Assembly: GCF_900100335.1 (NCBI RefSeq)
Contig: NZ_FNFE01000007.1
Coordinates: 124,001 to 188,000, forward strand
Length of the DNA stretch: 64,000 nt
Source: Natronorubrum texcoconense
Lineage (GTDB): Archaea; Halobacteriota; Halobacteria; Halobacteriales; Natrialbaceae
Direction of reading: 5' to 3'
Shown here: positions 25,987 through 29,673 of the stretch, piece after piece
Layout of the letters: each line of letters begins with the position of its first letter
How positions within the stretch are numbered: the stretch's first letter is position 1
The notes under the pieces: generated by a model
What the model saw: the letters and a program-made list of their open reading frames with translations, nothing else
Database searches by the model: none
What the model was told of the DNA's origin: nothing
Program-made: the position numbers and the translations under genes

Positions 25987-27870
25987 ATGCACGTCGTGCC
26001 GGATACGAGCGTGGTCATCGACGGCCGCGTCTCGGCGACGATCGAAGACGGGCAGTTCGAGGGAGCGACGATTTCGGTGCCGGAAGCCGTCGTCGCGGAA
26101 CTCGAGGCGCAGGCGAACGACGGGATCGACAGCGGCTGGGACGGGCTGTCGGAACTCCAGCGGCTGGCCGATCTCGCCGACGAGGGCGTCATCGATCTCG
26201 AGTACATCGGCGAGCGGCCCAACGCCATCGAGCGCGGCCACGCCTCCGAGGGCGAGATCGACGCGCTGATCCGCGATCTGGCCGAGGAGCTCGACGCGAC
26301 CTTCCTCACCAGCGACATCGTTCAGGCCGAAGTCGCCGAAGCCAAGGGGCTCACGGTCGAGCACGTCTCGCCCGAGGTTCGCGAGGTCGGCAAGCTCACC
26401 GTCGAGAACTACTTCGACGATCAGACGATGAGCGTCCACCTCAGGACGGGGGCCGTGCCGAAGGCCAAGCGCGGCTCGATCGGCGAGATGCGCTACGAGC
26501 CGATCGCCGACGAACCGCTCGACGAGGAGACGATGGACGAGTACGCCCGCGAGGTCGTCGACGGCGCTAAGGAGGCCCCCGAAGGCTTCATCGAACTCTC
26601 GGAGCCGGGCATGCAGATCGTCCAGTTCCGCGATTACCGGATCGCCATCGGCCGGCCGCCATTCTCGGACGGCATCGAGATCACGGCCGTCCGCCCGATC
26701 GCTCAAACCGACATCGACGACTACGAGCACGCCGACGAGTTGAAAGAGCGACTGCTCGAGCACCAGCGCGGGGTCCTGATTTCGGGTGCCCCCGGTGCCG
26801 GGAAGTCGACGTTCGCACAGGCGGTCGCCCGCTACATTTCGGATCACGACTACTCGGTCAAGACGATGGAGAAGCCGAGGGACCTGCAGGTCGGCCCCGA
26901 GATCACGCAGTACACCGAACTGGCGGGCGACATGGCCAACACGGCCGACGCTCTCCTGATGGTTCGACCAGACTACACGATCTACGACGAGGTCCGAAAG
27001 ACCAACGACTTCGAGGTCTTCGCGGACATGCGACTCGCGGGCGTCGGCATGATCGGCGTCGTCCACGCGACGCGAGCGATCGACGCGCTCCAGCGACTCG
27101 TCGGCCGGGTCGAACTCGGGATGATTCCCCAGGTCGTCGACACCGTCGTCTACATCGAAGCCGGTGAGGTCCACACCGTCTACGACGTCAAGACGGAGGT
27201 CAAGGTGCCCGCCGGACTCACGGAGGAAGACCTGGCTCGACCGGTCATCCAGATCACGAACTTCCGGACCGGCGAGCCCGAGTACGAGATCTACACGTTC
27301 AACCGCCAGGTCGTCACCGTTCCGCTCAAAGACGAAGACGGCGGCCCGGCGAACGAGTCCGGCGTCGACCGGATCGCCAAACAGGAGATCGAACGGGAGA
27401 TTCGCTCGATCGCCCGCGGCTACGTCGACGTCGAACTCAGGAGCCAGGACAAAGCCGTCGTCTACGTCGAAGACGACGACATCTCGAGCGTCATCGGCAA
27501 GGGCGGCGGTCGAATCACCGACGTCGAGAACCGCCTCGGCATCGATATCGACGTCCGGACCCACGACGAGAACCCCAACTACGGTGCCGGCGGCGGTGGC
27601 GGCGGCGCTGCCAGCGCCGACGGCAGAGGCGCTGGCGGCGGACAGGCCGCCGGCCAGATGGTCACGCCCGAGATTACCTCGAGGCACATCGTCATCCCAG
27701 TCGACGGCAACCACGGCGAGACGGTCGAAGTGCAAGCCGGCGGCGACTACCTCTTCACCGCGACGGTCAGTCGCGGCGGCGAGATTCAGGTGTCGCGCGG
27801 GAGCGCGATCGCGGACGAGTTAGAGCACGCGGTCGATCGGAAGGAGCCGGTGACGGTCGTGCCGTCGTAA
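25987..27870 (+). CDS. PIN-domain, PilT-type ATPase with KH domain
   Basis: A 627-residue archaeal protein. The N-terminal PIN nuclease-like domain (residues 1-125) has acidic residues in VPDTSVVIDG and TSDIVQAE. A hexameric type II secretion/PilT-like ATPase follows (Walker A GAPGAGKST near 260, Walker B region MVRPDYTIYDEVRK). Then comes a KH RNA-binding domain with the GxxG loop in SVIGKGGGRI near 500, a Gly/Ala-rich linker, and a C-terminal TRAM-like beta domain. The domain set suggests RNA processing or RNA-guided mechanical work; the substrate is unknown. Its last 30 codons are repeated downstream. Confidence 0.92.
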   Translation: MHVVPDTSVVIDGRVSATIEDGQFEGATISVPEAVVAELEAQANDGIDSGWDGLSELQRLADLADEGVIDLEYIGERPNAIERGHASEGEIDALIRDLAEELDATFLTSDIVQAEVAEAKGLTVEHVSPEVREVGKLTVENYFDDQTMSVHLRTGAVPKAKRGSIGEMRYEPIADEPLDEETMDEYAREVVDGAKEAPEGFIELSEPGMQIVQFRDYRIAIGRPPFSDGIEITAVRPIAQTDIDDYEHADELKERLLEHQRGVLISGAPGAGKSTFAQAVARYISDHDYSVKTMEKPRDLQVGPEITQYTELAGDMANTADALLMVRPDYTIYDEVRKTNDFEVFADMRLAGVGMIGVVHATRAIDALQRLVGRVELGMIPQVVDTVVYIEAGEVHTVYDVKTEVKVPAGLTEEDLARPVIQITNFRTGEPEYEIYTFNRQVVTVPLKDEDGGPANESGVDRIAKQEIEREIRSIARGYVDVELRSQDKAVVYVEDDDISSVIGKGGGRITDVENRLGIDIDVRTHDENPNYGAGGGGGGAASADGRGAGGGQAAGQMVTPEITSRHIVIPVDGNHGETVEVQAGGDYLFTATVSRGGEIQVSRGSAIADELEHAVDRKEPVTVVPS

Positions 27871-27982
27871 GCAGACCGCGAGTGAGCGACGCGAACGAGC
27901 GGACTTTTTTGGTGCAGATTTTTTCGCGGGGTTCGAACGCACCATAGGTGCGTGAGGACCCCGTTAAAAAAGGTGCGTGTGT

Positions 27983-28072
27983 GAAATTCAGGTGTCTCGC
28001 GGAAGTGCGATCGCGGACGAGTTAGAGCAGGCGGTCGACCGGAAGGAGCCGGTGACGGTCGTGCCGTCGTAA
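27983..28072 (+). pseudogene. Duplicate 3' end of the PIN-KH ATPase gene, copy 2
   Basis: Thirty codons reading EIQVSRGSAIADELEQAV then DRKEPVTVVPS and stop. Of six codon differences from the intact end, five are synonymous and one is His to Gln. It has no start codon or promoter of its own; TGA occurs in the same frame just upstream (GTG CGT GTG TGA in the overlapping frame region). Confidence 0.8.
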
Positions 28073-28174
28073 GTCGTTGTACCGCGAGCGACCGTGGGAA
28101 GCGAGCGGCTTTTTGGTGGAGATTTTTGCGCGAGTGGTCGCCGTAGCGACCCGAGCGGAAAAAGGTCCATCGTG

Positions 28175-28204
28175 AAGGAGCCGGTGACTGTGGTGCCGTC
28201 GTAG
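28175..28204 (+). pseudogene. Duplicate 3' end of the PIN-KH ATPase gene, copy 3
   Basis: Ten codons reading KEPVTVVPS and stop. The differences from the intact end are silent (ACG/ACT, GTC/GTG, and TAA/TAG for the stop). It is too short to function. Confidence 0.7.
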
Positions 28205-28461
28205 GCGAACCGTGAACGAACGCACGGTTCGGAGGCTGAAAGCCGAGAACCGCGGAAAGACGAACGGGCAACGCCCGTGAGAAAGTGAGCGAGTGGCCGT
28301 TGTTAGCGTAGATTTTGTGGAGTTGAGCGGGACCGAAGGTCCCGCACACCGTGCGAACGGGTTCTTCGAATCCGTGAGCAGAGAGTGGGTCGCGAACGGA
28401 GTGAGCGAACCCGACGAGAAAAAGTCAGTGGCCTGAAAACGAACGGCCCAACGAAGGGGTA
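28205..28461. repeat. Hairpin-rich intergenic repeat, partial relative of the dispersed family (copy D)
   Basis: It holds three consecutive hairpins: CGGGCAACGCCCG (28264-28276), GCGGGACC-GAA-GGTCCCGC (28327-28345) and CGGGTTCTTCGAATCCG (28358-28374, followed by TGAGCAGAG). The last two correspond in order and spacing to the hairpins of the copies at 50.4 and 58.9 kb, with different arm sequences. Head and tail boxes of the full element are absent. No gene is seen. Confidence 0.65.
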
Positions 28462-29673
28462 TCAAACGATCGTATACCGGCTTCCGGGCGCTTTCCGGTA
28501 GCCGTAGACGGTCCCGTCAACGACGACGACCAGTCGATCGCCAACGAGCAAGAGGGTTCCCAGACAGCCACGTCCGTCGGCCGGTGACGCTTCCCACCAC
28601 CCGTCCCCATCACTCGTCACCGCGGCCAGTCCGCAGCCGTCCATCTCGGGCCCCGATCCCCAGCCGTATATTCCGTCACGGTCGGCGACCGGCGTCTCGC
28701 GGAACGAGTACTCGTCGCGTCGCCAGACGACGTCGCCGGCAGAGACGTCGATCGCCTCGAGCGTGCCGTCCGAATATTGATAACACCACTCTGTCTCCGA
28801 GACGGTGACGGGCGTAGCGCTCTCCGTCGATCCTTCGAGTGGAAGCGCGAACCGCCGGTCGCCGTCGGCCGCGACCGCCCACAGTTCGTCGTCGACGCCG
28901 AGCAGTGCGTCCGAACCGACCGTCTCGAGCCAGTGAGTGTCGACGGGCAGCGACCGACTCGCTTCGACGGTGCCGTCGTCGCCGATTCCGTACAGCGTCG
29001 GGGCCTCCGGCTCGTTGTCGGCATCCGTCTCGCCAGGACCCCTCGTGCTGAGCAGCCACAGGCGGTCGCCTGCGAGCGCGATGTCGGCGACTGCGTCAGC
29101 GGCGAGCGACTCGTCCTCGAGCGCGAACCGTTCGGTGCCGTCGTTCGCATCGAAGCCGACCACCCCGACCTCGTGGCGGCCGACGAGCGCGTCGCCGGCG
29201 GCGGACAGCGAGAGCGGTGGTCCCTCCCAGTCGGCCGTCCAGCGCGGTGTGGGATCGTCCTCGTCGTCCGCCGGCGCCTCGAGCGCCGTTACGCCGCCGT
29301 CCTCGAGCGCCAGATAAACACGACCGTCGGCGACCGCGGGTTCGCCGACGTACTGTCGGTCGGCGTTCTGACTCCAGCGCTGGTCGCCGGTTTCGTGATA
29401 GGTGGTGATGCGAGCGTCGTCGACGTCGACGAAGTTGACACCGGTATCGCCGCTTTGGAACGTACGGCCGCTACGGTTACGAATCCTGTAGCACGAGTCG
29501 CCGTCGGTGAGCCACGTCTCGTCGGACGGGCCGCCGGACGAAAGGCTACCGACATCGAACTGCCAGTCGAGTTCGCCGCCACCGGGTTGGTAGCCACAGC
29601 CGGCGAGCCCCGTCGTGAGGCCCGTTCCGACCGCTGCGAGCAGTCGGCGTCTACTGATTCGACCTCCAGTCAT
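28462..29673 (-). CDS. Tat lipoprotein with PQQ-like beta-propeller
   Basis: A 403-residue exported lipoprotein. The leader ISRRRLLAAVGTGLTTGLAGC has a twin-Arg motif and a lipobox (LAGC), so the mature protein is lipid-anchored outside the cell. The rest is a beta-propeller of PQQ/pyrrolo-quinoline-like repeats: recurring VYLALEDGGVTALE, LVGRHEVGVVGFDANDGTE and WCYQYSDGTLEAIDVSAGDVVW units. Such propellers often act as binding scaffolds (BamB-like) and need not bind PQQ. The start overlaps the stop of the upstream M48 protease gene by 4 bp, so the two form one transcript. Confidence 0.88.
   Translation of the reverse strand: MTGGRISRRRLLAAVGTGLTTGLAGCGYQPGGGELDWQFDVGSLSSGGPSDETWLTDGDSCYRIRNRSGRTFQSGDTGVNFVDVDDARITTYHETGDQRWSQNADRQYVGEPAVADGRVYLALEDGGVTALEAPADDEDDPTPRWTADWEGPPLSLSAAGDALVGRHEVGVVGFDANDGTERFALEDESLAADAVADIALAGDRLWLLSTRGPGETDADNEPEAPTLYGIGDDGTVEASRSLPVDTHWLETVGSDALLGVDDELWAVAADGDRRFALPLEGSTESATPVTVSETEWCYQYSDGTLEAIDVSAGDVVWRRDEYSFRETPVADRDGIYGWGSGPEMDGCGLAAVTSDGDGWWEASPADGRGCLGTLLLVGDRLVVVVDGTVYGYRKAPGSRYTIV

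Follow-up and report, generated by a model that had tools for sequence, protein, structure and literature searches.

Results

The PINA-like gene and the copies of its 3' end

The window, i.e. the whole stretch of 64,000 nucleotides of Natronorubrum texcoconense DNA that was analysed (genome G000), contains a gene for a PINA-like protein followed by two further copies of its own tail, and the whole locus can be written as a short (tail–E)n–tail array, where E denotes the element lying between the copies (Table 1). The product of the gene matches the NCBIfam ATPase model NF010335 above the cut-off and the PINA model NF053733 below it. The initial annotation had called it a PIN-KH ATPase; the PIN and ATPase domains were found by Pfam, but no domain family was given for the KH part. 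Its description of the repeat, in which the last 30 codons recur 202 bp downstream and the last 10 codons once more, is correct in coordinates and counts.

Table 1. Position of the PINA-like gene, the tail copies and the E elements in the window.
Feature	Position	Strand	Basis
PINA-like PIN-domain/T2SSE-type ATPase gene, 627 aa	25987..27870	+	Pfam PIN, T2SSE; NCBIfam NF010335
Tail copy 1, genuine 3' end of the PINA-like gene, 29 codons + stop	27781..27870	+	
E1, GC type	27878..27982	+	Fold; class-wide pattern; closing-pair covariation
Tail copy 2, 90-nt type, own stop codon	27983..28072	+	6/90 mismatches with copy 1
E2, GG type	28079..28173	+	Fold; likeness to the element of G005
Tail copy 3, 31-nt type, own stop TAG	28174..28204	+	3 differences from the gene end
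E3, GT type, degenerate (TTAGCGTAGATTTTG ... CCCGACGAGAAAAAGTCAGT)	28300..28429	+	Direct reading against intact GT-type elements

All the mismatches between copies 1 and 2 fall at third codon positions (five synonymous, one His/Gln), and so do the differences between copy 3 and the last 31 nt of the gene, one of which is the TAA/TAG exchange at the stop. The changes seen at these positions (G/A, G/T, C/T, C/G and T/C) are not adenine-specific. An in-frame GTG stands before copies 2 and 3. No tRNA is present within the window, which discards a tRNA-type attachment site at this locus.

Structure of element E

The spacers between the tail copies (101–112 bp) correspond to a conserved structured element whose consensus comprises a GA-rich leader, a T5-6 tract, an 8-nt box (RGY-XX-AGA), a second T5-6 tract, a variable stem-loop, an A5-6 tract and a closing GGT-X'X'. 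The closing pairs covary: of 119 distinct elements, 109 have an X'X' that is the reverse complement of their XX; with the partners shuffled, such cases averaged 32 and never exceeded 48. The T5/T6 tracts are placed 24–40 nt 3' of the stop codon.

In E1 the GA-rich leader is followed by a T-tract (27905–27910), the box GGTGCAGA, a further T-tract (27919–27924), the stem-loop, an A-tract (27966–27971), GGTGC and the right end GTGTGT. E2 has the same order, with T-tracts at 28110–28114 and 28123–28127 on either side of GGTGGAGA, then the stem-loop, an A-tract (28159–28163), GGTCC and the right end ATCGT. The predicted RNA folds are stable in comparison with shuffled sequences (E1, −38.5 kcal/mol, z −6.95; E2, −31.4 kcal/mol, z −5.47), and for both elements the gene strand gives the better fold of the two. 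E1 is a clear homologue of the corresponding element of G003, and E2 shows 97% identity over 70 nt to that of G005. The degenerate E3, placed 3' of copy 3, reads as the remnant of an older unit. A search of Rfam 15 with positions 27500–28600 gave no family match up to E=1, and the option that E is a known RNA family was discarded.

Distribution of E

A strict pattern for E matches 214 of 392 haloarchaeal genomes, with 1–18 copies in each, and the reversed pattern used as control gave no match; the former figure is a lower bound, because variants of the form T5-CRYXXACG-T5 found in Haloarculaceae (loci L300–L306 and L321) escape the strict pattern. E is therein dispersed, with structured ends. 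Among the non-duplicated E loci that have a convergent gene, belonging to several families, the right end of the element lies 1–6 nt from the stop of that gene in 29 out of 61. This placement at convergent stops, together with T-tracts available to either strand, gives E the appearance of a two-way transcription terminator, and it may act as one. As in the intrinsic terminators of Haloferax volcanii, where T5C alone stops 95% of transcripts (PMC7237163), T5–T6 tracts are found after the stop, on both strands and between convergent genes; unlike them, E is a defined, conserved structure of 60–110 nt with covarying closing pairs and attached gene-tail copies.

No credible E was found in the IMG/VR viral contigs, the two matches obtained being chance occurrences in AT-rich phage contigs, and a viral carrier was accordingly discarded. 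No account of E, or of tail copies linked to it, was found in the literature covered, a scope that leaves aside most subscription papers, and the T-tract motif searched there as a literal sequence returned nothing relevant.

In Natronococcus and its relatives the GT-type elements (TTTTTAGCGTAGATTTTT) lie at the centre of a larger dispersed repeat (loci L160, L166, L167, L175, L189, L193, L199, L208, L212, L226 and similar). The flanks of this repeat are conserved, on the left as ACAGGCGGAGGCGGTATCACTGC... and on the right as GGTACGTGTGCATCTCTACGTAACG, and gene-tail copies are never present. It is possibly a true MITE family.

Tail copies linked to E at other genes

The genome to which the window belongs has four further strict matches to E, two of which lie after other genes and precede a diverged copy of the last ~50 nt of the respective gene, complete with its own stop. 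Searching 84,980 species genomes for the core of E yielded 75 haloarchaeal loci, ~25 of them with a tail copy; the scores of these copies range from 28 to 280, the maximum in a control of randomly paired flanks being 25.5. The scores of a second, independent class-wide sample split likewise, into values of at least 33 and values of at most 13. Among 1,360 genes examined out to 420 nt, 59 tail copies were found, nearly all directly 3' of an E or a degenerate E, and none in the reversed-tail control; this sample is enriched for E loci, with the neighbouring genes at the same loci serving as internal control. The reversed-tail, random-pairing and control-window checks were all clean, and chance or low complexity was rejected as the origin of the copies.

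Besides PINA, a tail copy flanks E at no fewer than 11 further genes, mostly housekeeping ones. They include those for IleS, EtfA, GatB, HisH, HisF, SufS, PurH, ArgF, Dph6, a radical-SAM protein and DUF7533, as well as a metallo-hydrolase-like gene to which NCBIfam gave no name. Duplications range in length from ~27 to >110 nt and are in every case anchored at the gene tail, and many copies of E have none. The repeat in the window exemplifies a copying of gene ends that is widespread in haloarchaea.

Recurrence of the copies at PINA

The regions downstream of PINA gene ends, located with the C-terminal 44 aa of the PINA-like protein, were compared across 125 genomes of the same family. In many genera the last ~90 or ~31 nt of the gene recur 115–300 bp downstream, the copies starting nearly always at the same two points. 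The 90-nt type of junction, eroded examples included, is present at about 36 of 122 loci in 14 genera (three more matches at the loosest threshold are really 31-nt junctions), and the 31-nt type in 12 genomes of 6 genera; the loosest junction patterns match 2 and 0, respectively, of 1,475 control windows. Beyond the stop, similarity frequently continues into the 3' UTR, over 0 to >80 nt and with no fixed edge. In G048 the repeat consists of 92 nt plus 17 nt beyond the stop, after which E starts sharply.

A strict search for the 90-nt junction in the 392 genomes found it in the family of the window and in one genome assigned by inference to the Haloarculaceae (G371). Both tails of the latter seem native, with 3 mismatches between them and at least 20 to any Natrialbaceae end, and its element is of the local style. 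PINA in 26 further Haloarculaceae genomes is mostly found, species by species, with neither E nor a copy; where copies exist the tails look native and the breakpoints vary, at ~57 nt (G157, G189), ~63 nt (G295, G348), ~90 nt (G348) and ~30 nt (G344, where two exact units precede the final tail). The presence of PINA copies with several breakpoints in two families indicates that they arose repeatedly; one genome was taken per species, and gains and losses are therefore those inferred across species. Some breakpoints are common to several genera, as are the 57-nt type in G157 and G189 and the one at EtfA in three genera.

Divergence and exchange of the copies

In the copy pairs of 24 genomes with at most 8 mismatches, the mismatches at codon positions 1, 2 and 3 number 0, 1 and 41. 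Pairs of genes at a like divergence have 88% of their differences at the third position, and a simulated, neutrally drifting copy has 46%. This formal count bears out the initial proposal that the copies diverge like coding alleles. Copies confined to a single strain and free of third-position bias, the pattern which that proposal had set against itself, were not what was seen: dozens of genomes have related copies, a single-strain tandem duplication is discarded, and the proposal stands on this point.

The distance between copy and gene within a genome is 0–7 in 17 of the 24 genomes, compared with 8–20 between most genomes. Most copies thus lie nearer their own gene than the genomes lie to one another, as in concerted evolution. 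Exact arrays of the type (tail–E)n–tail, found in G065, G080 and G344 and at loci L185, L222 and L158, point to unequal exchange. New units adjoin the gene, and older ones are placed further out and are decaying.

G071 differs from this pattern of local likeness. Its gene body, copy and downstream flank match those of the relatives G074 and G085, but the last 90 nt of the gene itself do not; compared with the gene end of G085, the copy has 4 mismatches and the gene's own end 10. The clear reading of this arrangement is that a foreign tail has displaced the resident one downstream. The earlier suggestion of repeated replacement of the 3' end by a diverged allele is accordingly retained as to serial displacement and to the foreign end of G071; since most copies are nearest to the gene of their own genome, local copying or homogenisation has to be considered as well, and not all copies would be imported.

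DNA between the copies

No cargo of the integrase type was observed in ~50 PINA loci, where the spacer is E itself with the exception of G063 and G076. In these two genomes (L092 and L105) a gene for a putative lipoprotein of ~500 aa extends from about +190 to +1710 after the PINA stop, before an eroded 90-nt copy. DNA between the copies, which the initial annotation had expected some genomes to have, thus exists at two loci, neither of which has an integrase. A ~1.9-kb tandem duplication, also devoid of an integrase, is found in the region +1 to +2300 after the stop in G091 (L120) and includes the 3' part of PINA, two tail–E units and a rhodopsin-like gene.

Other arrangements were seen 3' of PINA. 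The start of a similar putative lipoprotein gene is present in G082. A ~75-bp unit (GCGCGGTTCGGAACGAGCGAAGCGAGTGAGAACCGCG...) occurs in at least three tandem repeats directly after the gene in G039 (L067). A sequence like the end of an IS200/IS605-type element (TGACATCCTCCCCGCCCTGAAGGGCGAGGATTCC) abuts the stop in G001 (L034), with a candidate TnpB-like region downstream.

Discussion

The explanation that we favour, and that we consider about equally likely to be right or wrong, is a duplication of the gene tail linked to E, followed by unequal exchange, gene conversion and import of alleles. Comparison of sequences documents the structure of E, its link with the copies, their recurrence, the arrays, the coding-like divergence and one clear case of an imported 3' end. 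Comparison also shows that, many times and at many genes, DNA at the right base of the hairpin (A5-GGT-X'X' and a few more nt) has become joined to a point within the last 30–90 nt of the gene, leaving the gene whole, E after its stop and a spare tail after E. In the likely course of events the hairpin triggers a template switch during replication, or an illegitimate joining, back into the nearby tail. Unequal exchange would then multiply or delete the direct repeats, gene conversion with the gene would keep them alike, and homologous recombination would at times import the 3' end of another strain and displace the resident tail downstream, leaving the repeats mismatched; these later steps are likewise considered likely. 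Gene conversion is reported to be extremely efficient in Haloferax volcanii (PMC8223754), and the present repeats resemble haloarchaeal concerted evolution as described there in being more alike within than between genomes and in their exact tandem multiplication. They depart from the usual case in that the process acts between the coding end of a gene and a spare copy that is non-coding. The extra tail probably represents a by-product rather than a translated product.

Two features fit this explanation poorly. After a simple tandem duplication the last tail should be followed by a second E, but in most arrays no E comes after the final tail, so that an E-linked duplication has to be combined with frequent secondary loss of E. 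In addition, the 90-nt junction GYGYGY|GAG recurs in 14 genera and once in another family; this recurrence and the breakpoints shared between genera are more regular than would be expected of random template switching and count against it.

The main alternative takes E as a mobile hairpin, similar to MITEs or REP sequences, which inserts near gene ends and doubles the tail through a long target-site duplication of variable length, the gene surviving. This is possible, if rather improbable in our judgement. It accommodates the arrays that end in an E-less tail, where E lies between two direct repeats, its dispersal in several copies per genome, the recurrence of junction positions at one gene in two families, the sharp start of E in G048 and the larger dispersed repeat with conserved flanks of Natronococcus. 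E is indeed, as REP sequences and MITEs are, a dispersed intergenic imperfect palindrome; it differs from them in being anchored at gene ends and flanked by gene tails of variable length, with no transposase or other partner enzyme identified and no credible copy in viral contigs. The wide range of duplication lengths, always at the gene tail, and the many unduplicated copies abutting convergent stop codons also speak against mobility. A target-site duplication of fixed length is rejected, given the range of repeat lengths, the loci with no repeat and the variable edge past the stop; similarity beyond the stop with no fixed edge is better accounted for by the E-linked duplication, since it is expected of a duplication followed by loss. 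A single ancient duplication per gene, inherited and kept gene-like by concerted evolution, is unlikely. It would agree with the same 90-nt junction and its eroded remnants in the 14 Natrialbaceae genera, with the homology of E1 between G000 and G003 and with copies nearer to their own gene than to each other, but not with the several PINA breakpoints within one genus of Haloarculaceae, where most species have neither E nor copy and gains must therefore recur; as the sole account it is contradicted by these breakpoints. The 31-nt copies, moreover, remain gene-like though short for gene conversion.

Insertion of phage 21 or e14 into icd of Escherichia coli replaces the 3' end of the gene with a mostly synonymous version carried by the element. 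The initial annotation had likened the repeat in the window to the footprint of such integrating elements, with the cargo since lost. At both kinds of locus the gene is whole, the old tail has been pushed downstream and the differences are mostly synonymous, and the third-position divergence, the foreign tail of G071 and the gene between the copies in G063 and G076 would suit this origin too. What separates the copies here is nevertheless a hairpin element of ~100 bp at all of at least 12 genes (the ~50 PINA loci and at least 11 others), never an integrase remnant, and neither a tRNA in the window nor a copy of E in a halovirus contig assists the comparison; lost integrative cargo is thus rejected, and elements borne by an integrase are a very improbable source. 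Expression of the tail copy as a short peptide under coding selection could explain the third-position bias and the GTG before copies 2 and 3 of the window. This start codon is not kept, having become GCG in G041, G048, G051 and G057 with the copies intact, which makes a translated spare tail unlikely; many copies are eroded and all lie downstream of a terminator-like element, so that we give this option very little weight. Copying by reverse transcription, through a diversity-generating retroelement or the retrohoming of an mRNA 3' end, has the appeal of geometry, as the succession of gene 3' end, hairpin and downstream copy recalls the VR–hairpin–TR order and the copied segment runs from within the gene to its 3' end. 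A reverse transcriptase domain (PF00078) is, however, absent from G000 and was found in only 2 of the 125 family genomes (G048, contig C6; G056, contig C37), and the differences between the copies of G000 lack the adenine specificity of such systems; this route is rejected as extremely improbable.

E-linked copying of gene tails is a widespread phenomenon, and the mechanism given above is an unproven proposal. A bolder suggestion, advanced tentatively, is that E is central to an active system, widespread in haloarchaea, which is mobile or homes by homology and which places a terminator hairpin after housekeeping genes while it rebuilds the gene end, with the spare tail as the right-hand homology arm for its spread between strains and species. 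The findings tie a class-wide, uncatalogued 3'-end structure to the repeated copying of coding sequence, and they raise the directly testable question of whether a hairpin at the gene end provokes duplication of that end. E is also a candidate portable two-way terminator. The common picture of gene ends is a static one; core genes here have their tails doubled, homogenised and swapped, and in haloarchaea the tail copies provide a natural record, open to counting, of gene conversion and of recombination across species.
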